A program made the translations under genes and the position numbers. From Mycobacterium colombiense CECT 3035 (GTDB lineage: Bacteria > Actinomycetota > Actinomycetes > Mycobacteriales > Mycobacteriaceae): a stretch of DNA of 64,000 nt. The DNA lies in contig NZ_CP020821.1 in NCBI RefSeq assembly GCF_002105755.1, positions 5,394,001 through 5,458,000 of the forward strand, given 5' to 3'. The notes below the pieces were generated by a model. That model had not been told where the DNA came from and ran no database searches. It saw only the letters and a list, made by a program, of their open reading frames with translations. Of the stretch, positions 45,961-61,388 are shown one piece after another; position 1 is the stretch's first letter; each line of letters begins with the position of its first letter.

Positions 45961-45979
45961 CGGCCTACGATCGGTGACC

Positions 45980-46825
45980 ATGGCCGATCGCCCCGTCACC
46001 AAGCTCGACAAGTCCGCCGTCCTCTCGGCACTCTTCGCGGTGTGGGACGACATCGACGGGTTGCTGGCCGGGCTGTCCGAAGCGCAGTGGCGGGCGGCCA
46101 GTCCGCTACCGGGCTGGGACGTCAAAGCCGTGGTGGCGCACATGATCGGCACCGAGTCGTTCCTTGCCGGCATCGCCGCACCCCAGCCCGACATCGACGT
46201 GTCGACGCTGAAGCATGTGCGCAACGACGTGGGCGTGATGAACGAGTGTTGGGTTCGCCACCTGAGCGCGCACGCCGACGCCGACGTGCTGGAAAGCTTC
46301 CGGGCGATCACCACCGATCGGCGCGAGGCGCTGACGGCCATGTCGGGCGACGAGTGGGACGCGGTGACGATGACGCCCACGGGCCCGGATTCGTATGGCC
46401 GGTTCATGCGGATCCGCGTGTTCGACTGCTGGATGCACGAACAAGACATTCGCGTGGCGTTGGAACGGCCGCCGACCGACGACGAACTGGCCGGCCCCGC
46501 CGCGCCGCTGGCCCTCGACGAGATCGCCGCGACCATGGGCTACGTCGTGGGCAAGCTGGCCAGGGCGCCCGAGGGTTCGCGCGTCCAGTTCGACCTCACC
46601 GGACCGCTGGCCCGCACCATCCGGGTCAGCGTCGACGGGCGCGCCGCGGTGGTCGACGACTTCGCCGGCCGAGACCCGACCGCGACCGTCCGCCTGGACG
46701 GGCTGCAGTTCACCAGGCTCGCCGGCGGCCGCCCGATGTGTCCGGCCCGACCCCAGGACATCGAGCTGGGCGGCGACCAAGACGTGGCCACCCAGGTTGT
46801 GGAGCACCTCAACTTCGTGATCTGA
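45980..46825 (+). CDS. Maleylpyruvate isomerase family mycothiol-dependent enzyme
   Basis: 281 residues. N-terminal DinB-like four-helix domain with LSEAQWRAASPLPGWDVKAV and AHMIGTESFLAG (metal-binding His about 58) and FDCWMHEQDIRVALERP (His 155-ish), then a C-terminal SCP2-like domain (about 200-281) with a strand pattern QFDLTGPLARTIRVSVDGRA. Members use mycothiol, the actinobacterial thiol, as cofactor. ATG 45980 preferred over GTG 45974. Gene lies between the transporter and ssrA. Confidence 0.88.
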   Translation: MADRPVTKLDKSAVLSALFAVWDDIDGLLAGLSEAQWRAASPLPGWDVKAVVAHMIGTESFLAGIAAPQPDIDVSTLKHVRNDVGVMNECWVRHLSAHADADVLESFRAITTDRREALTAMSGDEWDAVTMTPTGPDSYGRFMRIRVFDCWMHEQDIRVALERPPTDDELAGPAAPLALDEIAATMGYVVGKLARAPEGSRVQFDLTGPLARTIRVSVDGRAAVVDDFAGRDPTATVRLDGLQFTRLAGGRPMCPARPQDIELGGDQDVATQVVEHLNFVI

Positions 46826-46913
46826 TCGCCGCCCGGCCGGGAAGACAATCCCGTTGCTGCTGGTTGTTAGGCAGGTACCATTGATATTCCTGCCGAAAGT
46901 CGGCGGGGTGCGA

Positions 46914-47281
46914 GGGGCTGAAAGGTTTCGACTTCGCGCATCGAATCAAGGGAAGCGTGCCGGTGCAGGCAACTGACCACCGTAAGCGTCGTTGCAAACA
47001 GATAAGCGCCGATTCACATCAGCGCGACTACGCTCTCGCTGCCTAAGCGACAGCTAGTCCGTCAGACCGGGAAAGCCCTCGACCCGGACCCTGGCGTCAG
47101 CTAGAGGGATCCACCGATGAGTCCGGTCGCGGGACTTATCGGGACACCAACAGCGACTGGGATCGTCATCCTGGCTTGTTCGCGTGACCAGGAGATCCGA
47201 GTAGAGGCATAGCGAACTGCGCACGGAGAAGTCTTGAGGGAATGCCGTAGGACCCGGGTTCGATTCCCGGCAGCTCCACTA
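46914..47281 (+). ncRNA. ssrA: tmRNA (ssrA)
   Basis: Transfer-messenger RNA of 368 bases. The 5' GGGGCTGAAAGGTTTCG pairs with 3' CAGCTCC; the T-arm GGGTTCGATTCCC is intact. The tag frame GCC..TAA at 47008-47046 encodes ADSHQRDYALAA, the tag remembered for M. tuberculosis. Overall sequence is highly conserved with that gene. The last three bases are CTA, not the encoded CCA expected; the discriminator A is at 47278, so the true 3' end must be trimmed and repaired. SmpB is encoded upstream. Confidence 0.96.
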
Positions 47282-47291
47282 CAGAATGTGC
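47256..47291 (+). other. Left attachment-site repeat (att) at the tmRNA 3' end
   Basis: 36 bases covering the T-arm and acceptor of ssrA plus ten bases beyond. An imperfect copy (31 of 36 identical; differences at positions 7, 18, 24, 26 and 31) lies at 56712-56747. This is the arrangement left by integration of an element into the ssrA 3' end. The left copy holds the functional T-arm. Confidence 0.75.
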
Positions 47292-47296
47292 GGTCA

Positions 47297-48136
47297 TCAG
47301 TGCTTGGCAACGGCCTGGTGACCCACTACAGCGAGCAGGCGCAGCTTGTCTGCTGACGATGTGCCGGCGGGCGGTGTCAGTATTACCAGTGACTGACCGT
47401 CGGTGGTCGCCAGTACTTCGCAGTCCAGCGTGATCGGGCCGACGCGGGTGAGGAATGTCTTGCGCTGCATGCGCCGTACCGCAACCTCGTGCCGGGCCCA
47501 CAACTTGCGGAACTCGTCGCTGTGCTTTAGCAGGCCGTCGACGAGTTCACACATGTCGGCGTCGCGGCGCCGCCGGCCCCACGCCGCGCGTAAGTCCGCG
47601 ACCCGGCTTCGGCTGTGTTGGTCACATTCTTCTGGCGGTATCGCCTCGCGGGCACCTGGATCGGTGAACCACCGCCAGCACATGCTCGCCTGCAGCCCTG
47701 GCTCTTCACTGACCAAGTCGCCCATCAGGAGCTTGGCCATGTCGTTTTGCGCGAGCACGATCTCGGTGTCCGAGCAGACGAAGGCCGCCGCGTCGGTCAT
47801 CTGATCGAGCAGGTACATCAGTGCGGGCCGCACATGAAGTGAACACCCGGTTCGATCCGGCACCGCGTGTCCAGCGAGTCGGTAGAGGTGCTCAGTCTCG
47901 TCAGTGGTGAGGCGAAGTGTGCGTGCGAGCGCGCGCACGATCTGTAGCGACGGCTGAGTGCTTCGAGCCTGCTCAAGCCGGCTGTAGTAGTCAACCGACA
48001 TCCCGGTCAAGTGGGCTATCTCCTCGCGGCGCAGGCCGGCCGCGCGGCGCCGTGCACCCGGCGGGAGTCCTACGTCGGCGGGGCTGATCGATGCTCGGCG
48101 GGTCCGCAGGAACTCAGCCAGCGCGTCAGATTCCAT
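47297..48136 (-). CDS. XRE family regulator with MmyB-like ligand-binding domain
   Basis: 279 residues. HTH region REEIAHLTGMSVDYYSRLEQ (about 37-56) after an Arg-rich start, then the MmyB-type PAS-like domain (about 100-270): MTDAAAFVCSDTEIVLAQND, RWFTDPGARE, DLRAAWGRR and the terminal block VGPITLDCEVL. Members often sit divergently from an oxidoreductase they control, as here with the aldo/keto reductase. ATG 48136. A perfect inverted repeat lies 18-34 bases upstream. Confidence 0.9.
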   Translation of the reverse strand: MESDALAEFLRTRRASISPADVGLPPGARRRAAGLRREEIAHLTGMSVDYYSRLEQARSTQPSLQIVRALARTLRLTTDETEHLYRLAGHAVPDRTGCSLHVRPALMYLLDQMTDAAAFVCSDTEIVLAQNDMAKLLMGDLVSEEPGLQASMCWRWFTDPGAREAIPPEECDQHSRSRVADLRAAWGRRRRDADMCELVDGLLKHSDEFRKLWARHEVAVRRMQRKTFLTRVGPITLDCEVLATTDGQSLVILTPPAGTSSADKLRLLAVVGHQAVAKH

Positions 48137-48153
48137 CTCCCCATTGTCATCGA

Positions 48154-48170
48154 TGGTTAGCGTTTAACCA
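48154..48170. promoter_or_regulatory. Inverted repeat operator between XRE regulator and aldo/keto reductase
   Basis: TGGTTA-GCGTT-TAACCA is a perfect 6+5+6 inverted repeat in the 134-base divergent gap; a further half-site GGTTAA lies near 48185. The probable binding site of the XRE regulator. Confidence 0.55.
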
Positions 48171-48270
48171 GGGACTCTCAGACCCCGGTTAAGTGCGGCC
48201 TGGTCGCACCGTCTGATTCGGCGCAAGAGTGGCCGTACAGACGGAAACGGACATATGGGAGAACACCGCC

Positions 48271-49323
48271 ATGCAATATCGAACGCTGGGTCGAACCGGA
48301 ATCAACGTCAGCCCATATTCCTTGGGGGCCATGATGTTTGGCGGGATGAACACCGATCATGACGACTGCATCCGCATCATCCATCGAGCGCTGGACGCCG
48401 GGATCAACGTCATCGACACCGCGCCCGCGTACTCGGGCGGCGAGTCCGAAGAGATTGTCGGTAAGGCGCTCAAGGGCCGGCGCGACGACGTAATCGTGGC
48501 GACCAAAGTGCACCTTGTCAGGGGCGAAGAGACCATTCAGCGCGGCAACTCCAGGTCATGGATCACGGCCTCCGTCGAAAAATCGTTGCGGCGCTTACAG
48601 TCTGACTACATCGACGTATACCAGCTGCACCGACCCGACCCGCAGACTGACATCGAGGAGACGCTGTCGGTGTTGACGGACTTGGTCCGCTGCGGCAAGG
48701 TGCGAGCCATCGGATCCTCGACGATGCCTGCGTCTGACATGGTGGAGGCTCAGTGGGTCGCTGAACGGCGCGGCTTGGAACGGTTCCGTTGCGAGCAACC
48801 CCCGTACTCCATCCTCGATCGCGGCGTCGAGGCCGAGGTATTGCCCGTTGTCCAGCGTTATGGCATGGGAGCCCTGGTGTGGAGTCCGCTGGCGCAGGGA
48901 ATGCTCACCGGTCGCGTCCGGAAGGGGCAGCAGACGGATCTGCGCCGCGCGGCGCTTTTCAAGCACATCAGTGACGAACGCCGACTCGACGCCGTCGAAG
49001 AGTTGACCGCTTTGGCCGCCGACGTCGGACTGCCACTGCGCCGCCTGGCGATGGCGTTCGTCGTCGCCCACCCGGGGGTCAGCAGCGCCATCATCGGGCC
49101 GCGCACTATGGAGCATCTCGAGGACCTGCTCGCCGGACTCGACGTCGACCTTACTGAGGACATCCTCGATCGAATCGACGGCATCGTGGCCCCTGGAACC
49201 GATGTCGGCACCCTCGACATGGCCTACCGGCCTCCAGCCCTGCTTGAGCCCGGGCTGCGCCGCCGGCCTCGAAGCCCGCAGGCAGGCGCAGGGGGTCGGT
49301 ATAGCCAGGGGTGCAGCCGTTGA
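48271..49323 (+). CDS. Aldo/keto reductase
   Basis: 350 residues. YRTLGRTGINVSPYSLGAMM opening strand, DAGINVIDTAPAYSGGESEE (Asp and Tyr of the catalytic tetrad, about 46-65), VATKVHL (Lys), YQLHRPDP (His), and SSAIIGPRTMEHLEDLLAGL as NADPH motif near the C-terminus. ATG 48271 with GGGAGAA upstream. The C-terminal ~30 residues (PGLRRRPRSPQAGAGGRYSQ) look like an extension running into the convergent LeuD-like gene, with a 100-base tail overlap. Function unknown. Confidence 0.9.
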   Translation: MQYRTLGRTGINVSPYSLGAMMFGGMNTDHDDCIRIIHRALDAGINVIDTAPAYSGGESEEIVGKALKGRRDDVIVATKVHLVRGEETIQRGNSRSWITASVEKSLRRLQSDYIDVYQLHRPDPQTDIEETLSVLTDLVRCGKVRAIGSSTMPASDMVEAQWVAERRGLERFRCEQPPYSILDRGVEAEVLPVVQRYGMGALVWSPLAQGMLTGRVRKGQQTDLRRAALFKHISDERRLDAVEELTALAADVGLPLRRLAMAFVVAHPGVSSAIIGPRTMEHLEDLLAGLDVDLTEDILDRIDGIVAPGTDVGTLDMAYRPPALLEPGLRRRPRSPQAGAGGRYSQGCSR

Positions 49324-49919
49324 TCGCGGGCGCGGTAGGCGTCGATGTTTTTGCGGTGGCGCAGATTGTCATCGATGTCGTCCAGTCCCTCGAGAAGCAG
49401 TTGGCGGGGCCGTTCGTCGATGGGGAAGGAGCGCCAGGGCCCTCCAGTGGCGCGCACGCGGCTGTGTTCGAGGTCGATCTCTGCTTGTGGTGGTTCGCCG
49501 GCGTCGATGTGTAGTTCGGCGACCAGACGGGCGTGTTCGTCTGGTGGGAGGGCCAGCGGCAAGATGGTGTTGTGGTAGCAGTTGGCGGCGAAGATTGACC
49601 CGAAGCTGGGGGCGATGATGGCTTTGATGCCGAATCCGTGTAGCGCCCACACGGCGGATTCTCGGGAGCTGCCGCAGCCGAAGTTTGCGCCGGTGAGAAG
49701 TATGGTCGCGGTCCGGTAAGCTGCCTGGTTCAGGATGAAATCCGGACTTTCGCAACCATTTTCGTCGTAGCGCCAATTGCCGAACAGGATCGATTCGTAT
49801 CCGGTTTTGCCTAGGCCGGTCACCTGAAGGCGGGAAGGTGCGATGACGTCGGTGTCGATGTTGTCGCGCAGCAGAGGCGCGACCACGCCGGCGAGGTGTC
49901 TTAGTGATCGGTCGATCAT
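49224..49919 (-). CDS. LeuD-like hydro-lyase small subunit
   Basis: 231 residues, aconitase swivel domain. LRDNIDTDVIAPSRL (about 18-32) and GANFGCGSSRESAVWAL with the conserved GSSRE block (about 75-91), AIIAPSFGSIFAANCYHN. It pairs with the LeuC-like gene (ATGA overlap). The last 40 residues are an Arg/Pro-rich extension beyond the family core, overlapping the aldo/keto reductase gene. This is not in the leucine operon context, so it may act on another dicarboxylic acid such as methyl- or dimethylmalate. Confidence 0.85.
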   Translation of the reverse strand: MIDRSLRHLAGVVAPLLRDNIDTDVIAPSRLQVTGLGKTGYESILFGNWRYDENGCESPDFILNQAAYRTATILLTGANFGCGSSRESAVWALHGFGIKAIIAPSFGSIFAANCYHNTILPLALPPDEHARLVAELHIDAGEPPQAEIDLEHSRVRATGGPWRSFPIDERPRQLLLEGLDDIDDNLRHRKNIDAYRARDQRLHPWLYRPPAPACGLRGRRRSPGSSRAGGR

Positions 49920-51319
49920 GGCAGGGTCCTGGGATCGGTGATGTGTCCGGTGAGTGCGGAGGCGGCGACGGTGGCGGGGCTGGCCAGGTGTGTGCGCACG
50001 CCGGGGCCTTGGCGACCTTCGAAGTTTCTGTTGGTGGAGCTGATCACGCGCGCGCCGATCGGGAAGCCTTCGCCGCCGCCGAAGAAGCAGAAACCGCAGC
50101 CTGATTCGCGCCACTGAAAGCCGGCGTCGACGAAGATGCGGTCGATGCCCTCGGCTTCGGCAGCGCGCTTGACCGCGCTCGACCCGGGGATGCAGATGGC
50201 GGTGACTCCGTCGGCGACGTGGCGTCCGGCCAGCAGTGATGCCGCGGCTTGCAGATCGGAAAGCCGTGCGTTGGTGCAGGATCCGATGAAGGCGGCGTCG
50301 ATCGGTATACCGGTCATCGGTGTACCGGGGGTCAGGCCGATGTAGGCGAGCGCTTTTGCGGCTCCGGCGGGATCGGCCAGTGTGTCGGGATGCGGTACCG
50401 ATGCGCCGACGCCGACGCAGTGCTGGGGACTGGTGCCCCAGGTGATCCGCGGTGTCAAGGCGGTGACGTCGATGTCAACGGTGCGGTCGAAGCGTGCCCC
50501 GGCGTCGGTGCCCAACGCCAACCATTGCCGGGCGGCGCGCTGCCAGTCACGACCGGTAAGTGCTCCTGGCCTGGTCTTGAGGTAGTCCAGGGTGATGGCG
50601 TCGGGGGAGACGATGCCGGTGAACCCACCGGCTTCGACGGCCATGTTGCACAGCGTCATTCGGCCTTCGATGGGCATCGATTCGATAATCGGCCCGGTGT
50701 ACTCGATGGCGTAGCCGGTGGCGCCTGCGGCGCCGATGGTCGCGATGAGCGCCAGAATCAGGTCTTTGGCGTAGACGCCATCGCCGAGCGATCCGGTGAA
50801 GCGGGCCTGCAGGGTCTTCGGCCGTTTGACGGCCAGCGTCTGGGAGGCCAGGGCGGTCTCGCAGGTGCTCACGCCGACGCCCCAGGCCAGTGCGCCGAGA
50901 CCTCCGTTGGTGCCGGTGTGGCTGTCGGCGCACACCATCGTCATGCCGGGCAGGACTAGCCCCTGCTCGGGGAAGGTGACGTGACAAATTCCTTGGCGGT
51001 CGTCGTCGAGGTCGAAGATCGGTATTCCCGCTTCTGCGGCGGTGGCTCGGAATCCTTCAATGAATTTCTGACTGTCGGGGGCGGGACTGGTGTCGGTGCG
51101 TCCGGGTCGGGTGTCCACCGAATGGTCGATGGTGCCGAATACGGTGTGCGGGTCAAAGACCTGTCGGTGAGCGTCGTGCAGGCTGGTGAGCGCGAACGCG
51201 CCGCTCTTCTCGTGCAGGAAGATCCGGTCGATATAGAGCAGCGCCGTGTCGGCGTCGAGTTGGGATACCGCGTGGGCATCCCAGATCTTGTCGACGACTG
51301 TGCGCGGTTGCGGTGCCAT
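49916..51319 (-). CDS. LeuC-like hydro-lyase large subunit (aconitase family)
   Basis: 467 residues. VCADSHTGTNGGLGALAWGV with the metal-proximal His/Asp, FIGSCTNARLSDLQAAASLL (first cluster Cys) and RESGCGFCFFGGGEG (other two Cys) form the [4Fe-4S] site, ending STNRNFEGRQGPG. Classical LeuC has GCSMCLxMNxD at the second cluster block, whereas this has FFGGGEG, so substrate preference may differ. ATG 51319 shares one base with the lyase stop upstream; a GTG one codon earlier is alternative. Confidence 0.87.
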   Translation of the reverse strand: MAPQPRTVVDKIWDAHAVSQLDADTALLYIDRIFLHEKSGAFALTSLHDAHRQVFDPHTVFGTIDHSVDTRPGRTDTSPAPDSQKFIEGFRATAAEAGIPIFDLDDDRQGICHVTFPEQGLVLPGMTMVCADSHTGTNGGLGALAWGVGVSTCETALASQTLAVKRPKTLQARFTGSLGDGVYAKDLILALIATIGAAGATGYAIEYTGPIIESMPIEGRMTLCNMAVEAGGFTGIVSPDAITLDYLKTRPGALTGRDWQRAARQWLALGTDAGARFDRTVDIDVTALTPRITWGTSPQHCVGVGASVPHPDTLADPAGAAKALAYIGLTPGTPMTGIPIDAAFIGSCTNARLSDLQAAASLLAGRHVADGVTAICIPGSSAVKRAAEAEGIDRIFVDAGFQWRESGCGFCFFGGGEGFPIGARVISSTNRNFEGRQGPGVRTHLASPATVAASALTGHITDPRTLP

Positions 51320-52224
51320 CACTGCCTCCCCCCGTTGGGCACGAGACCGGCGAGGTAGCGCTGCTCGAGCTCGGCGACCAGCGGCGTACCTGCCAGGCCA
51401 TGGACGTCGGCGAAGCTGGCCGTGCGCGGACCCAGATTCCAGGTCCCGTCATCTTCACGAATCTGCTTGAGTGCGTCGGTAATCCCGGTGATCGCGGCGG
51501 CAAACAGGACGCCGGGCAGACTGACCCGGGCCACGCCGAGTGTCTGCAGCTCGGTGAACGTCAGGCGGGTCGGCGACTTGCCGCCCTCGACGATGTTGAT
51601 CCCCACCGGCCCGTCGATACCTGCAACGGCGGCGACGATCTCCTCCCGCGCGTGCAACCCCTCCACGAACACCAGCGTCGCGCCGGCATCGAGGTAGGCG
51701 TTGCCGCGCTCGATCACCCCATCAATGCCCTCCACCGCCAGTGCGTCGGTACGGGCGGTGATGACAAAGTCCGGGTTGTACCTGGCATCGGCGGCGGCAC
51801 GAATCTTGGCCACCGCCTCGTCCAGGTCGATGACGTGTTTGCCGTCGAGGTGACCACACCGTTTGGGCATGACCTGGTCTTCTAAGTTGACCCCCGCGAG
51901 GCCGTGGCGTTCGAAGGTTTGCACCGTGAAGAACGTGTTGACCGCGTTGCCGAATCCGGTATCGGCGTCACCCACCACGGGAATGTCGACCGATCGGGCG
52001 ATCACGCCGCACGCGCCGGCCATCTCGGCCAGAGAGGCGATGGAGTAGTCCGGGACTCCGTAGTGCACCGCGGCGATCCCCAGGCCGCTGCACTGCAGCG
52101 CACTAAACCCGGCTTGCTGGGCCAGTTTGGCGCTGATCGGATCGTATACGCCGGGCATCACGACCAGATCGGGTCCCAGGAACAGTTCTTTGAGTCGGGA
52201 CGGCTTGTCATCTATGGGCGTCAT
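51319..52224 (-). CDS. Isocitrate lyase/PEP mutase family lyase
   Basis: 301 residues, ICL/PEPM TIM barrel. Motifs are GDADTGFGNAVNTFFTVQTF (about 86-105) with the metal-binding Asp cluster, NLEDQVMPKRCGHLDGK (about 115-131, catalytic Cys loop KRCGH) and ITARTDALAVEG. Reactions in the family: C-C cleavage of 2-methylisocitrate or 2,3-dimethylmalate, or oxaloacetate decarboxylation. ATG 52224, eight bases after GGAGG; upstream GTGs possible. First gene of a three-gene operon with the LeuC/LeuD-like pair. Confidence 0.9.
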   Translation of the reverse strand: MTPIDDKPSRLKELFLGPDLVVMPGVYDPISAKLAQQAGFSALQCSGLGIAAVHYGVPDYSIASLAEMAGACGVIARSVDIPVVGDADTGFGNAVNTFFTVQTFERHGLAGVNLEDQVMPKRCGHLDGKHVIDLDEAVAKIRAAADARYNPDFVITARTDALAVEGIDGVIERGNAYLDAGATLVFVEGLHAREEIVAAVAGIDGPVGINIVEGGKSPTRLTFTELQTLGVARVSLPGVLFAAAITGITDALKQIREDDGTWNLGPRTASFADVHGLAGTPLVAELEQRYLAGLVPNGGRQ

Positions 52225-52246
52225 CTCCACCACCTCCTATCTAACT

Positions 52247-52260
52247 TATATAGCTATAAA
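52247..52260. promoter_or_regulatory. Palindromic MarR operator candidate
   Basis: TATAGCTATA at 52249-52258 is a perfect 10-base palindrome within an AT-rich block; ATAGCT repeats at about 52264. It sits between the divergent lyase operon and marR genes, overlapping the likely promoters. Confidence 0.5.
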
Positions 52261-52328
52261 TCATAGCTGTCAACACATTGCCGAGATGCAGCGTTGATTA
52301 ACCGAAGGTGGGATTAGGGTTATTCGAG

Positions 52329-52799
52329 ATGGAACACGAGGAGGCGTCGCGGCTGCGGCGCCAGCTGATGACACTGCAGCGCCGGATTCGCCGGGAGATG
52401 AAAACCGGTCCGGTGGCGCTGTCAGATGCGTTGGTACTGGGCGCAATTGAGCGCCACGGGGGAACGGTGTCTCCGGGGCAACTCGCCGAAGACCTGGTCA
52501 TGACGACATCCAACGTCGCCGCGGCGCTGCGATCGCTCGAGGCGGCGGGGCTGATCAGCCGTAAACGTGACTCCACCGATGCCCGGCGGGTGCATATCGA
52601 GCTCACTGAAGACGGCCGCCGCCTGGTCGTCGACGATCGACGCCGGCGCGACGATTGGCTGCGTGACACCATCAACACCACCCTGAGCCCGCGTGAACAG
52701 CAAATCCTGCAGCAGGCCGGAGAGTTGATGAGCCGCCTGGCCTACGAGGGCCTCGACAATCGCGACGAGCTCGATCGCGGGGACACGGCTGCAGGCTGA
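52329..52799 (+). CDS. MarR family transcriptional regulator
   Basis: 156 residues. Winged helix: GTVSPGQLAEDLVMTTSNVA (helix-turn-helix, about 50-69), AALRSLEAAGLISRKRDSTD and ARRVHIELTEDGRRLVVDDR as wing, then a C-terminal dimer helix. ATG 52329 chosen; a GTG seven codons upstream is in frame. Divergent from the ICL-LeuC-LeuD operon, which it probably represses through the palindrome between them. Confidence 0.87.
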   Translation: MEHEEASRLRRQLMTLQRRIRREMKTGPVALSDALVLGAIERHGGTVSPGQLAEDLVMTTSNVAAALRSLEAAGLISRKRDSTDARRVHIELTEDGRRLVVDDRRRRDDWLRDTINTTLSPREQQILQQAGELMSRLAYEGLDNRDELDRGDTAAG

Positions 52800-52853
52800 G
52801 CCACGCGCTAGGCGCTGCGGCTCGCATTGCCGCGCGGGGCGAAATTCCCAGGC

Positions 52854-53636
52854 CTAGGGAAGAACTGAGGGCAGGTAAGCCACTATGGCTTCGGCGACAG
52901 CGTGGGGTTGTTCGGGGAATAGCGCATGGCTGGCACCCTCGATGATCGTCGTGCTAACGCGGTCACCGTAGCTCTCCCGCAAGTCACCCCATTCAGCAGC
53001 GATGTGGAACGGATCGAGCGCTGCAATGATCTCGAGAATCGGCGCAGCACCGGCACCCCAGTAGCGGCCGACTTCGGTGCGTTGGACACAGTCGACCTGC
53101 ATCGCCAGGGTCGCGGGGTACCAGCCCGTCAACCACGGCGAGGCGTCATGCTCTGGGGCGAAGAACGCCAGGCGCAGCGCATCCATCCGGACGGCATCCG
53201 GCAAGGAAAGGTCACCGGCACGCATCGGAGCCGAAGCCACTTCGGGTGCAACGGTTTTCCCGGACGCGGCCGCCAAGATGACGGCGGCTACCTTGTCGGG
53301 ATGGTGCACCGCCGTTGCGCGGGCGACGAAGTTGCCGAATGCGTGACCCAGTATCACCGCCGGCCCGTCGGCGAGTTCGTCGATCACGCAAGCGATATCA
53401 CCCGCCATGTCTTCAAAGGTGACCGCGCTCATTGGGCCGGCCGAGCGGGCGACCCCGCGCGGTTGGGGCCGCAGCACTTGGTAACCGGCGTCGACGAGCA
53501 CGTCGGTCAGTGCCTCGAAGTCAGTGCCGCCGTCGCGTCCGTAGGACGGGACGATCACTAGCGCTGGGCCGCGCCCGTCGACGTAAGTCTCGATAGAAGC
53601 CGTAGCCGAGTCGATGATTGCGCTGTGCCGGATCAT
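52854..53636 (-). CDS. Alpha/beta hydrolase with Ala at the nucleophile position
   Basis: 260 residues of alpha/beta-hydrolase fold: ALVIVPSYGRDGGTDFEALT (oxyanion region), a long cap, and IIEGASHALFPEQPHAVAEA with the catalytic-type His. At the nucleophile elbow the sequence is ILGHAFGNFVARATAV (about 92-107), where Gly-X-Ser-X-Gly would be expected, so Ser is replaced by Ala. Either the enzyme uses a Ser-independent mechanism or acts non-hydrolytically. ATG 53636 overlaps the beta-propeller stop by four bases. Last gene of the lactone-type operon. Confidence 0.82.
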   Translation of the reverse strand: MIRHSAIIDSATASIETYVDGRGPALVIVPSYGRDGGTDFEALTDVLVDAGYQVLRPQPRGVARSAGPMSAVTFEDMAGDIACVIDELADGPAVILGHAFGNFVARATAVHHPDKVAAVILAAASGKTVAPEVASAPMRAGDLSLPDAVRMDALRLAFFAPEHDASPWLTGWYPATLAMQVDCVQRTEVGRYWGAGAAPILEIIAALDPFHIAAEWGDLRESYGDRVSTTIIEGASHALFPEQPHAVAEAIVAYLPSVLP

Positions 53637-54616
53637 GATTGGTCGCGATGCAGTTCGACGCGCAGCAGCGCCGCGTTTCGAACGATGCCCTTCGGAGGGG
53701 CGGTCGTGCCGCCGTCGGTGGTGACGTACAAAACTCGGCCATGTTCTGCCGGCAGACGTCCCCATGACGCGCTCGACGGTCCGATGAGCGCTTCGTCGAA
53801 CGGGTCGCCGATGAGGTGACGGACTTCGCTGCCGTGACGAGGATGTAGTGGCACCCGGTCGATGGTGTTGGCGCGGTGGCGGGTGACGTAGGCAAACCCG
53901 GTCTCGTCGTCGAGGCAGAAGTCATCGGCATTGTCGATCGCGGCGACGAACTCTGGCGGCCCGTCCGCCTCCAGCGTGGAGGGGTTGACCGGGACGCGCA
54001 TGAACACTTTCTGCGCTGTGGAGGTGTAGTACAGGTAGCCGGTGCGGCGGCTGTAGCGCACACCGTTGACGCCGGGTTGCGGCGGCGGTGGCACGCCGCT
54101 GTCCGGGTCGAAAGCCATGGTGTCGTGAGCCAGCCACACTCGCGCGTTGGCTGTACGGGCCTCGTCGGCAAGGTCGACCCGCCAAATCAGGCCGGCGAAG
54201 CAGTCGGCGATCGCCAACACTCCCTGCCCGAGAACGCAGGTGCCATTGAGTCCGCGAGCGCGGTCGTCGAACCGGTAGATGGTCTTCGCGGTGACCGGTT
54301 GGCCAGGCCTCCAGTCGGTGAGATCGACTTGCACGAGCGAGGATTCGTGGGTGGTGTAGGCCTCGGTGAGGCTCACGACGAACACATCCGGGGCAATCTC
54401 GACGATCCCGGTCACGGGGTGGTCGAAGCGATGCACCAGAACAGGGCCAACTGTCGAGCCGAGGTGTGCGGGCGGGACATACCAGAGTTCTTTCTGCAGC
54501 ACCGCGGTGATCAAAGTGGAGCCGTCAGTGCGCACCGCGAGGTTCTCCAGAAAATAGTTCTTCGGGAAGTAGGCCACGGGTGTCAGCGTGACCGACGGCA
54601 GAGGTGCGATCGGCAT
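53633..54616 (-). CDS. SMP-30/gluconolactonase-like beta-propeller protein
   Basis: 327 residues. Repeated strand blocks (FFLENLAVRTDGSTLITAVL-like, GVLAIADCFAGLIWRVDLAD, NGVRYSRRTGYLYYTSTAQK, ADDFCLDDETGFAYVTRHRA) give a six-bladed propeller with conserved Asn/Asp of the SMP-30/LRE family. No signal peptide. Family includes lactonases and some cyclases or hydrolases. ATG 54616; 38 bases from the next gene. Likely processes a lactone intermediate in the same pathway as the carboxymuconolactone decarboxylase-like partners. Confidence 0.8.
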   Translation of the reverse strand: MPIAPLPSVTLTPVAYFPKNYFLENLAVRTDGSTLITAVLQKELWYVPPAHLGSTVGPVLVHRFDHPVTGIVEIAPDVFVVSLTEAYTTHESSLVQVDLTDWRPGQPVTAKTIYRFDDRARGLNGTCVLGQGVLAIADCFAGLIWRVDLADEARTANARVWLAHDTMAFDPDSGVPPPPQPGVNGVRYSRRTGYLYYTSTAQKVFMRVPVNPSTLEADGPPEFVAAIDNADDFCLDDETGFAYVTRHRANTIDRVPLHPRHGSEVRHLIGDPFDEALIGPSSASWGRLPAEHGRVLYVTTDGGTTAPPKGIVRNAALLRVELHRDQS

Positions 54617-54654
54617 GTTCTAATCTCCTCTCGGCGTGGGCCCGTGCGACGCCG

Positions 54655-55245
54655 TCACGGGGCGGGAATTGCAAACGCGGCCAGGATCGCGCAGACCGTG
54701 TGATAGATACCGGTCAGCACGGTAATGTCGAAAACTCCTGCAGCGCCGAAGATCTGCTCGGCGTGGTCGTACACTGCTTGATCGACGCGGTGGCCGGTGG
54801 ACAGTTGGCGGGCCAAGCGGTGAGCCGCGGTCTGCGCGTCGGACAGTTCTTCGGGCTCACTACCGCGTGTCAGTTCGGCGATCACGGCCTCCGACAGACC
54901 GGCGTGCCGCGCGACCGCGCTGTGCGCATAAAGCTCGTACGGCGCCTGCCACACTGCGCCGACGGTCAAGATGACCACCTGGCGGACCCGCTCGTCGAGA
55001 GAGGTGTGCTGTTGCTCGGCCTCCTGCAGTTGCAGGAATGCCATGGCCAGGGCGGGGCTGAGCAAGCTGGGGTTGAAGGGGCCGATGAGCCGACCGTCCG
55101 GGGTGGTCGCGGCGAAGCCGCTGCGTTGGGCCCAGCGTACGGCGGTGTTTGAGATGTGGTCGAAGAGGCCGCGTTGTGCCACGCTCAACTCATCGCGTTC
55201 GGCCAGCGCCAGTCGTCCGCCCAACCCGTAATCCTTCGCGCTCAC
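54655..55245 (-). CDS. Carboxymuconolactone decarboxylase family protein 1
   Basis: 196 residues, all-helical CMD fold. HTSLDERVRQVVILTVGAVW (about 80-99) and QAPYELYAHSAVARHAGLSE (with His) then IFDITVLTGIYHTVCAILAA. The usual AhpD-like CXXC is absent, so it is not a peroxidase-type reductase. GTG 55245 overlaps the next gene's stop by four bases. Tandem with a second, divergent CMD protein; heteromers are possible. Confidence 0.85.
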   Translation of the reverse strand: MSAKDYGLGGRLALAERDELSVAQRGLFDHISNTAVRWAQRSGFAATTPDGRLIGPFNPSLLSPALAMAFLQLQEAEQQHTSLDERVRQVVILTVGAVWQAPYELYAHSAVARHAGLSEAVIAELTRGSEPEELSDAQTAAHRLARQLSTGHRVDQAVYDHAEQIFGAAGVFDITVLTGIYHTVCAILAAFAIPAP

Positions 55246-55811
55246 TGATCCAAACCCGTTGCGTTAGCGGGCACGTCGAACGCCGCGAGCGTCATGCTGA
55301 CCATGGTGAACCAGCCAAGCAGCACTGCGACGTCGACGATGCCGGCGTCGCCCAGTAGCTCCTTGGCGCGCCGGTACAGCCCCGTCGGGATCACCCGCTG
55401 GCCAACCAGCGCCGAGGCGAGCTCGTAGACCACCTGCTGGCGCGGGTCGTCGAAGGATGTGGGCAACCCGGAGATCAAGGCTTCGACGGAACGTGCCTCG
55501 AGGTGGCCGTCCCGCTCGCCGATGATCTCGTGTTCATAGCTCGCGTACGCGCTGCGCCACCGCGCGCATACCAGGTTGGTCGCGATCTCGATCTCTGCTT
55601 TGGTCAGTGTCGATTCGCGTTGGTAGTAGGCCCCGGTCGGCACGATTGTCTTGGACAGTTTGGGATTGGCCAGCCAGATCCTGTGCGGGCCCGGCACCAG
55701 ACCCCGTAGCGCTTGAGTGAAGTCGTAGGCCTCTTTCATGTCGACCGACATCGCGTCCACCGGTGTCTCCACAAACCGGCCGAAGGTGCCGAAGTCGGCG
55801 TTGTCACTCAT
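55242..55811 (-). CDS. Carboxymuconolactone decarboxylase family protein 2
   Basis: 189 residues of the CMD family: LVPGPHRIWLANPKLSKTIV, TKAEIEIATNLVCARWRSAY, YEHEIIGERDGHLEARSVEA (His/Glu proton relay region), and VVYELASALVGQR. It lacks a CXXC pair. First gene of the four-gene operon (two CMD proteins, beta-propeller, hydrolase). ATG 55811; divergent TetR gene 140 bases away. Confidence 0.85.
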   Translation of the reverse strand: MSDNADFGTFGRFVETPVDAMSVDMKEAYDFTQALRGLVPGPHRIWLANPKLSKTIVPTGAYYQRESTLTKAEIEIATNLVCARWRSAYASYEHEIIGERDGHLEARSVEALISGLPTSFDDPRQQVVYELASALVGQRVIPTGLYRRAKELLGDAGIVDVAVLLGWFTMVSMTLAAFDVPANATGLDQ

Positions 55812-55864
55812 CGATTTATCTCCTTCTCGACGTCACCCGCCAGGATGGCGGTAGATGCTAAAGA

Positions 55865-55935
55865 GAACGGACGCTCATGTTTTTATGATGACCTGTAGCC
55901 GGCCTTGCTGTCAAACGCGAACGTTCATGTTCTTT
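55865..55935. promoter_or_regulatory. Repeated operator sites between CMD operon and tetR
   Basis: ACGCTCATGTTTTTAT at about 55871-55886 and ACGTTCATGTTCTTTG at 55921-55936 are near-identical direct copies 50 bases apart; the second contains GAACGTTC (55919-55926), a perfect 8-base palindrome. Placed over the divergent promoters, they fit TetR dimer sites controlling both units. Confidence 0.45.
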
Positions 55936-55951
55936 GAGATATAGTGTGGAC

Positions 55952-56542
55952 ATGCCGAAGGTGTCAGCGGAGTACCGTGCCGAGCGGCGAGCGCACATCC
56001 TCGCCGCGGCACGCAGATGCTTCGTCCGTGACGGCTTCCACGGCACCTCGATGCAGGATCTTGTCGATGAGGCTGGTGTCTCTTCGGGCGCGGTGTATCG
56101 CTACTTTTCGAGTAAGGGCGCCGTGATCGAGGCGATCGCCGCAGAGAACCTCGATCAGGTTGTCGGCGTCATGCAGAAGTCGGTCGAGGATGGCTTGACC
56201 GCCGACGCGGCTATCGCTGCCGTCCTCAAATTCGTCACAGCCCGTCACTCCGAGGATGGATTCGCGGCGATCGCGCTACTCGTCTGGTCGGAAGCGATGC
56301 GCAACGCCACGCTGGCTCAGCGACTACGCGATGCGATCGGGGCCGCAACGCGGCTACTGGGCACGTCGAATGGCCCGGGCAACGACGAGGGGGTACTGAC
56401 CGACTCGCTGTTGTGCGTTCTGCCTGGCTACTTGATGCAGCTGGCCCTGGGCGGACCGCCAGCTGCCAAGCACATACCCCGGACGGTCGAAAGCGTTTTC
56501 GGCCGCCATTTCGTCGCAAACCAAGAGGCATCAAAGTCATGA
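55952..56542 (+). CDS. TetR family transcriptional regulator
   Basis: 196 residues. HTH: RRAHILAAARRCFVRDGFHG followed by TSMQDLVDEAGVSSGAVYRY (about 12-50), typical TetR. The C-terminal domain is helical with a conserved LPGYLMQLALGGPPAAKH block. ATG 55952. Divergent from the CMD operon; likely its repressor. Last island gene before the right att repeat. Confidence 0.9.
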   Translation: MPKVSAEYRAERRAHILAAARRCFVRDGFHGTSMQDLVDEAGVSSGAVYRYFSSKGAVIEAIAAENLDQVVGVMQKSVEDGLTADAAIAAVLKFVTARHSEDGFAAIALLVWSEAMRNATLAQRLRDAIGAATRLLGTSNGPGNDEGVLTDSLLCVLPGYLMQLALGGPPAAKHIPRTVESVFGRHFVANQEASKS

Positions 56543-56858
56543 TCATCGGCGCCTTACAAAGTGCCGTGGCACCGCTGGCCTGCACAGCAGCCGAAGGCCG
56601 CCGGTGTCGCTGTCAAGACCCGAAACGAACCCGCAAGTAGCGCACTGACTGAACGCGAACGAGAAGTCCGAACCGACAGTTCGCAGGGCAAACGGCCAGG
56701 TAGGGGCGGAGGGGTTCCATTCCCGGCAACTCCAGTGCAGACTGTGCTGCTCAAAGCCAGATCTGTGGTTGGCTTATCCCTGGGGTGACCGGCTTTAATC
56801 GTCATACGACGGCCATGTCGCGTTGTGCACGCCCGAGACCGCATCGCAAGGAGCTCTG
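56543..56858. other. Intergenic stretch with the right att repeat
   Basis: 316 bases without a supported gene between tetR and the secreted protein. It contains the att copy at 56712-56747 and, just before the next gene, an AAGGAG ribosome site. No integrase remnant was found. Confidence 0.6.
56712..56747 (+). other. Right attachment-site repeat (decayed tmRNA 3' end)
   Basis: Copy of the tmRNA 3' end region at 47256-47291, 31 of 36 bases identical, same orientation. Its T-arm reads GGGTTCCATTCCC, which loses the invariant GTTCGA, so it is a displaced, non-functional remnant. The upstream context no longer matches the rest of ssrA. Confidence 0.75.
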
Positions 56859-57314
56859 ATGACCTATCGCCGTTTTGCTTGGGCGCTCGGTGCGGTGGCG
56901 GTGGTGGCGGCGGCCATCATTCCCATCGAGGCCCATGGCGAGCCGCCGACGAAGTGTCTGACCAACACCCCCAAGGGCAAGCAGGTGTACGTGCCCTGCG
57001 ATCTGCTCAACGCCGGAGCTAATTTCCCGCCGGGGCAACGTTGTCCCCCTCCCCTCGAGCAGTATCCGAAAGACGTGGCGGACTGGTGCGGCGAAGGCCC
57101 GGGCCTTGCGAGTACGACGCCCACGACTCCGACGAGCCCGACCACTCCGACGAGCCCGACCACTCCGACGAGGCCTACGAGTCCGACTAGTCGCGCGACC
57201 ACAACCAGTCCCGCGACCACAACCAGTCCCGCGACCACAACAAGTTCTGCAACCCCCACGAGTCCCACGAGCCCGGCGGCTCCGGGCAATGCGCCGAGCG
57301 GCAACGAATCGTAG
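56859..57314 (+). CDS. Secreted Thr/Pro-repeat protein
   Basis: 151 residues. Signal peptide (about 1-31, ending near EAHGEPP) then a compact domain with Cys (CLTNTPKG, YVPCDLLNAG, RCPPPLEQ, WCGEG), then a Thr/Pro/Ser low-complexity tail built from repeated PTSPTTPTSPTT units. At DNA level the tail has 18-base units repeated at 57126-57179 and again at 57194-57247. ATG 56859 with AAGGAG eight bases before. Cell-envelope or surface role; family not recognised. Confidence 0.82.
   Translation: MTYRRFAWALGAVAVVAAAIIPIEAHGEPPTKCLTNTPKGKQVYVPCDLLNAGANFPPGQRCPPPLEQYPKDVADWCGEGPGLASTTPTTPTSPTTPTSPTTPTRPTSPTSRATTTSPATTTSPATTTSSATPTSPTSPAAPGNAPSGNES
57126..57247. repeat. 18-base tandem repeats inside the Thr/Pro tail
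   Basis: Two runs: a unit starting ACTCCGACGAGCCCGACC three times at 57126-57179, and CGCGACCACAACCAGTCC three times (last diverged) at 57194-57247. In-frame, so copy number changes only tail length. A likely strain-variable site. Confidence 0.7.
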
Positions 57315-57790
57315 TGAATCGGCAGTTCGGAAGCCAAAAGCTCTGGTACTGGGTCGGTTTCGATTTTCGGCAGCCGGACTATTGAACATGCGGCACCCGC
57401 ACAACGTCAGACGAGAACCAGCGCGCCTTGTACCGCGAGCTCCGCGTTGAGCACCGCAGCGTAGCGGTCAGCCGCGTGCGAGAACTCGGCTTGTTGTAAT
57501 TCGCCTGCATACGTCTTCGCGGACGGCTCTCGGGCGCGACTTAATTCTCGCCGCCGCAGTAAGCGTTCACGCGATCGACAAAAAGGCGAAAAACACTTGC
57601 AACCGGGTAGTTTGGCGACGCGAGACGGAGACGGCGCACGAGATGTTTTATGTGGGCCGCTGCTGTTGCTGCATCGGTCTGGCGGCCACCCCGGGAATCA
57701 ACCCGGCGACGATGGCGTTCGCCTAGCCGTGGCGCACGCGAAAAGATGGCTTAATATCAGCTCGTCGAGCATTCCTAATCTGGGGGCACG
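57315..57790 (+). promoter_or_regulatory. mmpS-mmpL upstream region
   Basis: 476 bases between the secreted protein and mmpS. Apart from the Cys-codon ORF, TAATAT at 57752-57757 is a good -10 hexamer for a start near 57765, about 25 bases before mmpS. The 57520-57620 segment is AT-richer than its neighbours. Nothing else is recognised. Confidence 0.45.
57643..57726 (+). CDS. 27-residue polycysteine short ORF upstream of mmpS
   Basis: ATG 57643 to TAG 57724-57726, reading MFYVGRCCCCIGLAATPGIN and PATMAFA. Four Cys codons (TGC TGT TGC TGC) lie in a row. Mycobacteria have short ORFs with consecutive Cys codons that act as cysteine-responsive attenuators upstream of operons, so a regulatory role for the mmpS-mmpL transcript is plausible. 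No clear leaderless promoter (no TANNNT about 7 bases upstream); a weak GGAG lies twelve bases before. The stop is 64 bases before mmpS. Confidence 0.55.
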   Translation: MFYVGRCCCCIGLAATPGINPATMAFA

Positions 57791-58216
57791 GTGTTGACGC
57801 TTCTCAAGCGGGCGTGGGTTCCGCTGGTTGTGGCCGTGGCGCTGATCGTCGGCGGTGTCGCAGTGGTGCGACTCAATGGCGTTTTCCCGGGACCGGGCCT
57901 GCCCAAGCCCGATCCCCGGGATGCGACCCCTCCGTACGCGGCCAAGACAGCCATCTACGAAATCCTGGGACCGCCCGGCACAACCGGCGTCGTCAACTGG
58001 ATGGATGCGGAGTCGCTACCGCAGAAGGCGAGCTTCACCACCCTGCCGTGGTCGAAGACGATCGTCGCCCAGATGCCCGGCATCTTCGCCTACGTCGTCG
58101 CCCAGGGTGACAGTCCGTCCATCGGTTGCCGCATCACCGTGGACGGCAAGTTGGTCGATCAACAGCAGGTCAACACCCGGGACGCGCAGGTTTCCTGCTT
58201 GGACAAGTCCGCGTGA
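57791..58216 (+). CDS. MmpS family transport accessory protein
   Basis: 141 residues. One N-terminal helix (about 8-27), then the soluble periplasmic-side domain with TAIYEILGPPGTTGVVNWMD and SPSIGCRITVDGKLVDQQQV plus conserved Cys. GTG 57791 behind GGGGG. The GTGA overlap couples it with mmpL. MmpS proteins assist MmpL export of envelope lipids or siderophores. Confidence 0.92.
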   Translation: MLTLLKRAWVPLVVAVALIVGGVAVVRLNGVFPGPGLPKPDPRDATPPYAAKTAIYEILGPPGTTGVVNWMDAESLPQKASFTTLPWSKTIVAQMPGIFAYVVAQGDSPSIGCRITVDGKLVDQQQVNTRDAQVSCLDKSA

Positions 58217-61149
58217 GCGACGACACGAGCGACACCGACAGAATCCCCGTCGCGCAACCCACCACCGTTGAGCACAAACCGCGGATCGCCCGCACCATGC
58301 GCGTGCTGGCGCTGCCGATCATCGTGATCTGGCTGCTGATCGCGGTGGGCGTCAACGTCTTCGTCCCGCAGTTGGAGAAGGTTGCCGAGGAGGTCTCGGT
58401 GCCGCTCTCGCCGTCCGACGCACCGTCGGTGACCGGGATGAAGCACATCGGGCAGAAATTCAAGGAGTACGACTCCGACAACCTCGTGCTGGTGACGCTG
58501 GTCGGTGACAAACCGCTCGGCGAGGACGCGCACCGGTTCTACGACGATCTGGTCAACAAGCTGCAGCAGGACCACGAACACGTCGAGCATGCGCTGAATT
58601 TCTGGGGGCAGCGATTCACGGCCTCCGGTGTCGAGAGCTACGACCACAAGGCCGCCTATGTCCAGGTCAACCTGCGCGGTGACCAGGGCGGTGCCGTCGG
58701 CGACAAATCCGTTGCCGCCGTTCGTAAAATAGTCGCGGACTCGAAGCCCCCGGCCGGGGTGAAGGCCTATGTCGCCGGCCAGGGAGCCCTGACCGCCGAC
58801 ACGATTGTTGTCGGCGACGCGAGCCTGGCCAAGATGACGATCATCACCATCATCATCATCGCGATCATGCTGATGTTCGTCTATCGATCCATCGGCACGG
58901 TGCTGCTGACGATGGTCATCCTGTTCGTCGGACTGGCCACCGGCCGCGGCGTGGTAGCGCTGCTGGGCGAGACCGGCATCATGGGGCTGTCGACCTTCGC
59001 CGTCAACTTGCTGACGGCACTGGCCATCGCGGCGGGTACCGACTACGCGATATTCATGGTCGGCCGCTACCAGGAAGGCCGCGAACGAGGCCTGGACCGC
59101 GAAGCGGCCTACTACGACACGTTCGCCGGAGTCACCAAGGTGGTGCTGGGCTCGGGTCTGACGATCGTCGGGGCGCTGGCCTGTCTGAAATTCACCCGGC
59201 TGCCGTACTTCAGTTCGCTGGCGTTTCCGTGCGCAGTGGGCCTGCTCGTGGTGGTGGCCGCCGGGGTCACGCTGACGCCGGCGCTGATCGCGTTCGCAAG
59301 CGGCTTCGGCCTGTTCGACCCGAAGCGCGAGTTCAACTACACCCGGTGGCGCCGTTTGGCGACGGCCATCGTGCGGTGGCCCGCGCCCATCCTCGCTACC
59401 TCCGTCATCCTGGCGATCGTCGGCGCAATTGGCTTGATGGGCTTCACTCCGCGCTACAACGACCTGTACTACCTGCCGGAGAGCGCATCGTCAGTGAAGG
59501 CGTACACCGCGGCCGATCAACACTTCACCCAGGCGCGTTTGAACCCGGACCTGCTGATGATCGAATCGGACCACGATCTGCGCAATCCCAGAGACATGCT
59601 GGTCCTGGACAAGATCGCCGGCGCCATCTTCCGGGTCCCCGGCATCGAACGGGTGCAGAGCATCACCAGACCTCTGGGCCCACCGATTCAAGATGGATCA
59701 GTTCCATTCCAGCTCAGCGTGCAAAGCGCGCCGATCCGCAGCAACCTGAACTACCTGAAGGACCGTGTCGGCGACATCAAGAAGATCACCGGTTTCCTCG
59801 ACACTCAGATCGCGCTGTTGGAGCGCCAGTACGCGGTGACCCAGAAGCTCGCAAACGCCGCGGACGACAGCTCGAAAACCACGGCGGAGACGGCGGCCAT
59901 CACGGACGAAATCCGGGACCACATCGCGGATTTCGACGACTTCTGGCGACCGATTCGCAGCTACTTCTATTGGGAGAAGCACTGCTACGACATCCCGATC
60001 TGCTGGTCATTACGAAGCCTGTTCGACGCGCTGGACGGGTTCGACAAGCTCGCCGAAAAATTCCACGCCCTCACCGGCGACCTCACCGACACGGCCAAGG
60101 CCACGCGCGAATTGCTGGCGATCATTCCCGAGAACATCGCGGTCTCCAAGTCGATCCGGGATACGACGCTGACCATCTACAGCACGTTCGACAGTCTGAT
60201 CGATCAGTTCGACCGGCTGACCGACACGAACGCCGTGATGGGCAAGTCGTTCAACGACTCTCAGGTGGAGAGCCTGTTCTACCTGCCACCTGAGATCTTC
60301 CAGAACCCCGACTTCCTGCTGGGGTTGAGCCTGATGGTGTCGCCCGACGGCAAGGCCGCCCGTTTCATCATCACTCACGCGGTGGATCCGGCGACGACAA
60401 AGGGGATCGCATCTGTCGATCAGGAACGCCAAGCGGCCAAGGAGGCGCTGAAGCTCACCTCGCTGGAGAACGCCGACATCTACCTCGGCGGTACGGCCGC
60501 AACGTTTTACGACATCGCCAACGGCGCCAAGTTCGACCTGATGATCGCCGGCGTGGCCTCCATCGTGCTCATCTTCATCATCATGGTGATCGTCACCCGC
60601 GCTTTGGTCGCAGCGGGTGTCATCGTCGGCACCATCGTGCTGTCGTTGGGGGCCGCCTTCGGGTTTTCGACCCTGATCTGGCAGCACCTTGGGAACTTCC
60701 AGCTGCACTGGGTGGCAACCGAATTCGCGTTGATCGTGCTCTTGGCCGTGGGTTCCGACTACAACCTGATGTTGGTGTCCCGAATCGAGGAGGAGATCGG
60801 AGCCGGCCTGAAAACGGGACTCATCCGCGGCATGGGCGTGACCGGGCCGGTGGTGACTGCCGCCGGTGTGGTCTTCGCCGTCACCATGGCCACGATGATC
60901 ACCAGCGACCTGCGGGCGATCGGCCAATTCGGCACGACGATCGGCATCGGTCTGCTGTTCGACACCTTCGTCGTCCGATCGCTCATCACACCATCGATCA
61001 TGACGGTGATGGGGCGCTGGTTCTGGTGGCCGAAGCGGGTACGCGTCCGCCCGGCCAGTCAGATGCTTCGGTCGGTGGGGCCGCGCCCGTTGGTTCGTGC
61101 CCTGTTGTACCACCCGCGGCACGGGGCCCCGCCGGATCCGCAGACGTAG
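58213..61149 (+). CDS. MmpL family RND transporter
   Basis: 978 residues, 11-12 helices. First helix after an N-terminal cytoplasmic tail (about 33-52), then a large loop with the porter domain, a bundle at about 200-390 (DTIVVGDASLAKMTIITIII to GLFDPKREF), the second porter loop (390-740) and a second bundle. TDYAIFMVGRYQEGRERG and SDYNLMLVSRIEEEIGAGLK carry the Asp-Tyr pairs of the proton relay. Export of a lipid or siderophore is expected; substrate not determined. GTG 58213 overlaps the mmpS stop. Confidence 0.95.
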   Translation: MSDDTSDTDRIPVAQPTTVEHKPRIARTMRVLALPIIVIWLLIAVGVNVFVPQLEKVAEEVSVPLSPSDAPSVTGMKHIGQKFKEYDSDNLVLVTLVGDKPLGEDAHRFYDDLVNKLQQDHEHVEHALNFWGQRFTASGVESYDHKAAYVQVNLRGDQGGAVGDKSVAAVRKIVADSKPPAGVKAYVAGQGALTADTIVVGDASLAKMTIITIIIIAIMLMFVYRSIGTVLLTMVILFVGLATGRGVVALLGETGIMGLSTFAVNLLTALAIAAGTDYAIFMVGRYQEGRERGLDREAAYYDTFAGVTKVVLGSGLTIVGALACLKFTRLPYFSSLAFPCAVGLLVVVAAGVTLTPALIAFASGFGLFDPKREFNYTRWRRLATAIVRWPAPILATSVILAIVGAIGLMGFTPRYNDLYYLPESASSVKAYTAADQHFTQARLNPDLLMIESDHDLRNPRDMLVLDKIAGAIFRVPGIERVQSITRPLGPPIQDGSVPFQLSVQSAPIRSNLNYLKDRVGDIKKITGFLDTQIALLERQYAVTQKLANAADDSSKTTAETAAITDEIRDHIADFDDFWRPIRSYFYWEKHCYDIPICWSLRSLFDALDGFDKLAEKFHALTGDLTDTAKATRELLAIIPENIAVSKSIRDTTLTIYSTFDSLIDQFDRLTDTNAVMGKSFNDSQVESLFYLPPEIFQNPDFLLGLSLMVSPDGKAARFIITHAVDPATTKGIASVDQERQAAKEALKLTSLENADIYLGGTAATFYDIANGAKFDLMIAGVASIVLIFIIMVIVTRALVAAGVIVGTIVLSLGAAFGFSTLIWQHLGNFQLHWVATEFALIVLLAVGSDYNLMLVSRIEEEIGAGLKTGLIRGMGVTGPVVTAAGVVFAVTMATMITSDLRAIGQFGTTIGIGLLFDTFVVRSLITPSIMTVMGRWFWWPKRVRVRPASQMLRSVGPRPLVRALLYHPRHGAPPDPQT

Positions 61150-61178
61150 CGGGCGTCGCCGAGTGCGGATTGTCTCGG

Positions 61179-61388
61179 CTACCGCGCCGCCTTGGCGGCC
61201 TCGCGCCGAGCCTTTTCCTTCGCGTGGGCCGAGCAGCAATGCCCCATATCGCAATGGAACCGGTCACTACAATCATGCGAACAATAGACTGATGCGGCCG
61301 GAAGCCATTCCGGATCGGACAGGTCACGCGGCCGGTCATCCGGATCGAACGTATGGCCGCAATGTATGCAGACCTTGGTCCTGGCCAT
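61179..61388 (-). CDS. Small Cys/His-rich protein (zinc-ribbon-like)
   Basis: 69 residues. Cys/His pattern CIHCGHTFDPDD (C7, C10, H12), SVYCSHDCSDRFHCDMGHCC (C36, H38, C40, H45, C46, H49, C51, C52) and SAHAKEKARR suggests one or two zinc sites; the end is helical and basic. ATG 61388. Convergent with mmpL, 29 bases apart. No family named with certainty; a nucleic-acid-binding knuckle is plausible. Confidence 0.6.
   Translation of the reverse strand: MARTKVCIHCGHTFDPDDRPRDLSDPEWLPAASVYCSHDCSDRFHCDMGHCCSAHAKEKARREAAKAAR

Follow-up and report, generated by a model that had tools for sequence, protein, structure and literature searches.

A 64-kb stretch of Mycobacterium colombiense CECT 3035 (the window; all coordinates are positions in it) carries, directly behind its ssrA gene, about 9.4 kb of accessory genes enclosed by a direct repeat. 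A sequence-only reading of this DNA had proposed a genomic island integrated into the 3′ end of ssrA, and the comparisons described here support that proposal through empty sites in relatives, a duplicated core, and a conserved element end. G-labels below denote genomes of the genus and L-labels the stretches that were fetched.

The ssrA locus, its repeat, and its empty sites

The transfer-messenger RNA (tmRNA) gene ssrA, the target of integration, is intact on the forward strand at 46914..47281 (ARAGORN places it at 46914–47279; Rfam model RF00023 matches 46914–47281 over its full length with 147.7 bits). Its 3′ end, 47256..47279, forms a 24-nt left attachment (att) core, and a right att core in the same orientation, differing from it at 3 positions, lies at 56712..56735. 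Both were found by repeat search and pattern matching, and each opens one copy of a longer direct repeat (family D4, 47256–47291 and 56712–56747). As the sequence-only reading had it, the copies span 36 bases, of which 31 are identical. From start to start they are 9,456 bp apart, and chance accounts poorly for them, as a 22-nt pattern spanning both copies, with at most 3 mismatches, has two sites in the 64 kb where 0.01 is expected (100 dinucleotide shuffles). Nucleotides 1–24 of the repeat are the tmRNA 3′ end, and the final 12 run beyond the tmRNA and resemble the post-core sequence of relatives with an empty site. This 12-nt extension, the conserved element end, and the second unit described below all go beyond the earlier reading. 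Of 118 genus genomes, 17 have, in addition to ssrA, one or more short copies of its 3′ end (not counting G067, in which ssrA is divided between two contigs).

We fetched 40 ssrA stretches of genus members (one duplicates another), and the empty sites that had been anticipated at related loci were found in two relatives, each uninterrupted and with one core. In L091, from G118, positions 1254–2584 match window 45961–47295 and positions 2545–3141 match window 56712–57292, so that both window cores fall on a single core; L091 is collinear with the window on both sides of it, and MmpS-MmpL and PGRP follow. The other, L095, is M. colombiense GF28, whose ssrA is identical to that of the window (366/366) and whose layout is as in L091, without the 9.4-kb island. 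Ahead of the core, window and L095 agree over 200 nt without a difference (200/200), and, in keeping with the expected likeness of the right repeat to empty-site sequence, the 120 nt after the L095 core match the right side of the window at 98 positions (best of 200 shuffles, 78), versus 76 on the left side, which is not above shuffles (best, 80). A regenerated target gene and a displaced fragment mark the two island ends.

The 82 nt left of the right core (56630..56711, forward strand) resemble the sequence left of distal cores in L011, L018, L027, L034, and L040, and constitute an element end, here termed type A, that is conserved at other ssrA inserts. A profile built from these five relatives, with the window excluded, matches 56630–56735 at E 2.3e-10, and at 5.9e-6 when the core is removed and only the arm is used. 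The same window-free profile matches 57274..57379 on the same strand (E 4.5e-13; arm only, 5.7e-7), a second type-A end whose degenerate core lies at 57356–57379 and which includes a third, degenerate D4 copy (57356–57391, 72%). Model R1, the profile of all six rows (the five relatives plus the window), has matches at E ≤ 1e-4 in 30 of the 238 genus genomes. In the window's own genome it has two strong matches, both at this locus, and the sole other match (E 0.002) is the ssrA core itself. End types other than type A are also present at ssrA. With the 106-nt query, a distant-mode search of a phage collection brought up 96 records; in no record did a single place span 80% of the query, and the best 20 of the 96 cover 24–30%, at the core end only. 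A phage source of the arm was rejected on these results, as was a plasmid source, the plasmid search having given a single match confined to the core.

Because of the second type-A end, we read secP (56859..57314, forward strand) as the cargo of a second unit. It encodes a small protein with a Thr/Pro-rich tail, secreted as judged by eye and without a Pfam match, and appears to be a 0.64-kb unit of its own, in tandem behind the island. In M. colombiense GF28 and G118, the secP unit stands alone between ssrA and MmpS-MmpL. We detected secP in 18 of the 49 non-window ssrA loci, directly 3′ of ssrA in L014, L019, L020, L023, and L027 (judged from positions only). The MmpS-MmpL genes (window 57791–61662) follow secP in the window, L091, and L095 and precede it in G061 (L008) and M. 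vulneris (L094), a change of order that is unexplained.

Cargo of the island

The island carries 11 genes in three blocks. In block 1, an MmyB-like helix-turn-helix regulator (47297..48136, reverse strand; identified by domain match and homologue comparison) borders an aldo/keto reductase (48271..49323, forward; open reading frame from 48229); this block is 74–80% identical in G134 and G055. Block 2 consists of a LeuD-type small subunit (49224..49919), a LeuC-type large subunit (49916..51322), and a lyase of the PEP-mutase/isocitrate-lyase superfamily (51319..52233), all on the reverse strand, and a MarR regulator (52329..52799, forward; open reading frame from 52308). Its identity is 93% in G060, 92% in G134, and 91% in G143. 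Block 3, 88% identical in G060 and ∼72–79% in others, holds an alpha/beta hydrolase (52854..53636; open reading frame to 53765), a protein without a Pfam match whose solved relative is the hypothetical protein 2p4o (53633..54616), a carboxymuconolactone-decarboxylase (CMD) family protein (54655..55245), and a second protein without a Pfam match, CMD-like by eye only (55242..55811), these four on the reverse strand, followed by a TetR regulator (55952..56542, forward). All but the two proteins without a Pfam match are assigned by domain matches, joined by solved relatives for LeuC and the lyase, and domain matches bear out the three regulator types of the sequence-only reading. Among proteins of solved structure, oxaloacetate acetylhydrolase, 2,3-dimethylmalate lyase, and methylisocitrate lyase are among the relatives of the lyase, and homoaconitase and isopropylmalate/citramalate isomerase are the relatives of LeuC. 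The island may encode a hydratase-plus-lyase route that acts on a branched dicarboxylic acid.

The earlier reading had named the same gene content at ssrA in all relatives as the outcome that would speak against it. Instead, 10 of the 11 cargo genes are absent from all 49 other ssrA loci, and the MmyB-like regulator has one 37% match (matches below 35% identity or 40% coverage were discarded). Several of these loci lie on short contigs or are covered for only ∼18.6 kb past ssrA, and more distant cargo would have escaped. Relatives of the cargo lie elsewhere: in G060 the copy is at 0.50–0.51 Mb and ssrA, 92% identical to that of the window, at 3.16 Mb. Relative to G134 and G060, two pieces are missing from the window: ∼0.76 kb at the junction of blocks 1 and 2, and ∼1.4 kb, with one open reading frame, at that of blocks 2 and 3. 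Exactly at the first of these junctions, the reading frames of the aldo/keto reductase and LeuD run into each other tail to tail and share 100 bp (49224–49323).

All 11 frames are open, without stops, and dN/dS values versus homologues are 0.07–0.32, consistent with cargo under purifying selection. The MmyB-like regulator at the border ends 14 residues short of two close homologues (L085 and L087), which suggests trimming at the junction; a distant homologue, L100 (36%), ends earlier still. The deviation in GC content that had been expected is present, the island at 0.645 lying below all 150 equal-sized upstream intervals, but it is mild (0.645 versus 0.655–0.687), and we rejected composition as a main argument because it is weak. 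No transfer gene shows up when the 11 proteins are matched to Pfam, although no search aimed at conjugation was made. PHROGs, run on 10 of the 11 proteins (LeuC was left out), yielded regulators, an esterase, and families without known function, and none of the phage structural or replication genes that a cluster K1-like prophage remnant should show.

Integrases and integrase-less modules

That the integrase is missing had also been noted from sequence, and the searches agree. All six PF00589 matches of the window's own genome lie outside the island, PF00239 has zero matches in that genome, and tblastn with eight ssrA-adjacent integrases from relatives finds no match in the window; the integrase that would make the island autonomous is not there. 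The PF00589 match of the own genome that is closest to the island, ∼40 kb away on its right side, is 41–46% identical to the eight ssrA-adjacent integrases but adjoins a tRNA-Ala gene, and was rejected as a resident enzyme acting on ssrA. The genome contains no integrase known to be specific for ssrA. At the left end of the island, no arm-like heptamer occurs within 170 nt of the core, and a simple scan of 47200–47500 gave no terminator-like site.

Elsewhere in the genus, seven genomes (G065, G107, G042, G233, G220, G228, and G129) encode a PF00589 protein immediately 3′ of ssrA; the eight integrases taken from them are 47–94% identical to each other. In G233 and G220, an element that starts with an ssrA-adjacent integrase ends in a type-A arm and core, and this pairing links type A to a tyrosine integrase. 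The G233 integrase is ∼51–52% identical to phage integrases among the best 12 matches listed, which points to no close phage. G220 (L088, L089) carries two ∼54-kb elements in tandem at ssrA, each with its own integrase first; these two integrases are 57–58% identical.

We defined a module as the interval between successive cores or type-A ends, leaving aside tRNA-Ala-like cores and intervals shorter than 200 bp, in 50 stretches that include the window but not G220. The sample is biased, having been chosen in part for extra cores, and here, too, several stretches are too short (small contigs, or sequence that stops ∼18.6 kb behind ssrA) to show cargo or integrases farther away. Among the 45 modules, 6 match an integrase over 300 or more aligned residues (that of G074 looks interrupted), 1 has a partial match (G091), and 38 have no detectable integrase. 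Programs that call islands from integrases may therefore miss such modules. The cargo in the ssrA region of relatives includes, by eye, P450 and SDR genes, an mce-like gene set, and a PKS-like gene. In G132 (L069, L070, L049, L050, and L051), five type-A ends succeed one another, none more than 70 kb from ssrA, with neither a PF00589 nor a PF00239 match there; by eye, its modules contain an mce-like gene set, P450 and SDR genes, a large membrane-transport ATPase-like gene, and a PKS-like open reading frame of 2,068 residues.

Left ends were also compared (94 collected, 87 distinct; those with fewer than 300 nt after the core were dropped, and heptamers were matched exactly). Two TCAACAT-like heptamers, near +50 and +62, are present in 5 of 10 integrase-bearing left ends. 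Among the 77 integrase-less left ends, 14 have one heptamer within 170 nt (8 of them near about +49–60) and none has two; by eye, L012 and L015 look like degenerate two-site ends.

Origin of the island and its relation to known elements

We consider it very likely that the 9,456-bp island entered the ssrA 3′ end by recombination of the tyrosine-integrase type and is now decayed cargo resembling a cis-mobilizable element (CIME). The empty sites, the duplicated core, the conserved element ends, the absence of an integrase, the patchy cargo, and the second unit behind the first are direct observations. In the first step, the ssrA 3′ end, with its core of 24 nt, would serve as attB and recombine with an attP that matches it; the right arm of this attP would remain at 56630–56711. 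The incoming left core would have restored the tmRNA and pushed the original 3′ end to 56712, such that the left repeat copy came with the element, as had been presumed. An integrase of the ssrA family presumably carried out the insertion and was later lost, probably by deletion, along with the left arm and terminator typical of integrase-bearing elements. What remains, a LeuCD-type hydro-lyase, a PEP-mutase/isocitrate-lyase-type lyase, other enzymes, and three regulators, would have been kept by selection. The cargo is probably now fixed, and the island would become mobile only upon arrival of an ssrA-specific integrase or via homologous recombination in the flanks. It would be stacked ahead of an older unit, that of secP, with the same kind of end.

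Several observations weigh against this account. With neither integrase nor remnant in the island, the former integrase has to be supposed. The right core has diverged, so the insertion is not recent. The cargo has its relatives outside ssrA, so that other routes must also have moved or assembled it. The border regulator stops early against only two of three homologues, the distant one being shorter still. Finally, type-A arms turned up in neither the phages nor the plasmids searched.

The module may instead never have had an integrase. It would then belong to a class of cargo modules that lack one and are inserted in trans, with resident elements supplying the ssrA-specific integrases. The preponderance of modules without a detectable integrase (38/45), the G132 row, and the left ends, where a single heptamer near about +49–60 (8/77) and never a pair (0/77) contrasts with the pairs of integrase-bearing ends (5/10), all point in this direction. 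We nevertheless regard it as unlikely: the modules were selected in part for extra cores, exact matching of heptamers would overlook degenerate two-site ends such as those that L012 and L015 resemble, the partial integrases in G091 and G074 show that decay happens too, and the window's own left end retains no arm site. About as unlikely, in our judgment, is import of a ready-made segment, in which a donor's ssrA-island-secP region replaced that of the recipient via homologous recombination in conserved flanks, the site-specific event having occurred in another lineage. Such import would explain why the genome has no known integrase of ssrA specificity, and similarity between the window and L095 does dip at secP (0.844, versus 0.917 over 1.3 kb left of the core and 0.925 at MmpS-MmpL). 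The two empty-site relatives show the same dip between themselves, however (0.878 versus 0.945), so that secP simply changes faster, and we rejected the dip as a mark of an imported flank. Moreover, the 200 nt before the core are those of L095, and none of the 49 loci supplies a donor with this island at ssrA. That the repeat is fortuitous, or the region native and lost in relatives, is scarcely credible. The mild GC deviation and the intact genes under purifying selection would fit a native region, but the shuffle test, the element-end profile, and the exact empty sites contradict it, as does cargo at 88–93% identity away from ssrA in a genome, G060, whose ssrA is only 92% identical.

CIMEs, as defined in one report, have lost integration and transfer genes and kept attL and attR (PMC5704250); the island is likewise bounded by att sites, lacks such genes as far as detected, and stands in tandem with a related unit, and would thus work like a CIME rather than an autonomous island. 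It differs in that we found no resident ssrA-specific integrase, and its att sites are putative (three differences in the right core, no arm-like heptamer at the left end). For Dehalococcoides, another report describes tandem ssrA islands, 16 that have an integration module and 15 that do not, and suggests CIMEs and accretion (PMC3146451). Both systems use the ssrA 3′ end as their integration site and have direct repeats, tandem arrays on its downstream side, units without an integration module, and catabolic cargo; there, however, the enzyme is a serine recombinase, whereas here we see tyrosine integrases and a cluster-K1-like core in another phylum. Cluster K1 mycobacteriophages integrate in the tmRNA gene, with a 24-bp common core at its extreme 3′ end and, on the integrase side, a terminator between core and arm site (PMC3203893). 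Core and terminator arrangement are shared with ssrA elements, but the island has no phage genes among the 10 of 11 proteins tested, and the type-A arm was not found in phage records. Prophage attB sites at mycobacterial tmRNA have likewise been published (PMC10654092).

Thus, tmRNA integration and tandem ssrA islands are already known, and the integrase-less mycobacterial arrays are the part that may deserve follow-up. Such rows seem less well described than tmRNA integration itself; we found no published description of them in mycobacteria, in a search that left most subscription literature outside. A bolder and unlikely generalization is that the mycobacterial ssrA 3′ end could be a docking site for rows of integrase-less modules, added in trans by integrases of resident prophages or islands with the newest next to ssrA, in effect a cassette array outside integrons. 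Each module would read core, terminator, one arm site, cargo (∼0.6–38 kb), type-A arm, and core, and the window island would be a decayed unit. If new units always insert beside ssrA, the sequence in which they were acquired could be read from their arrangement. More immediately, the window offers a cargo island whose borders are precise and whose empty sites are named, its element-end profile finds further such modules, and the region behind ssrA looks like a recurrent entry port for metabolic genes.

Type-A-like ends also occur at a distance from ssrA in several genomes (L053–L059, L068). One of these, in G132 (L068), lies at a core that by eye resembles the 3′ end of tRNA-Ala, and elements related to type A may use that gene as well.

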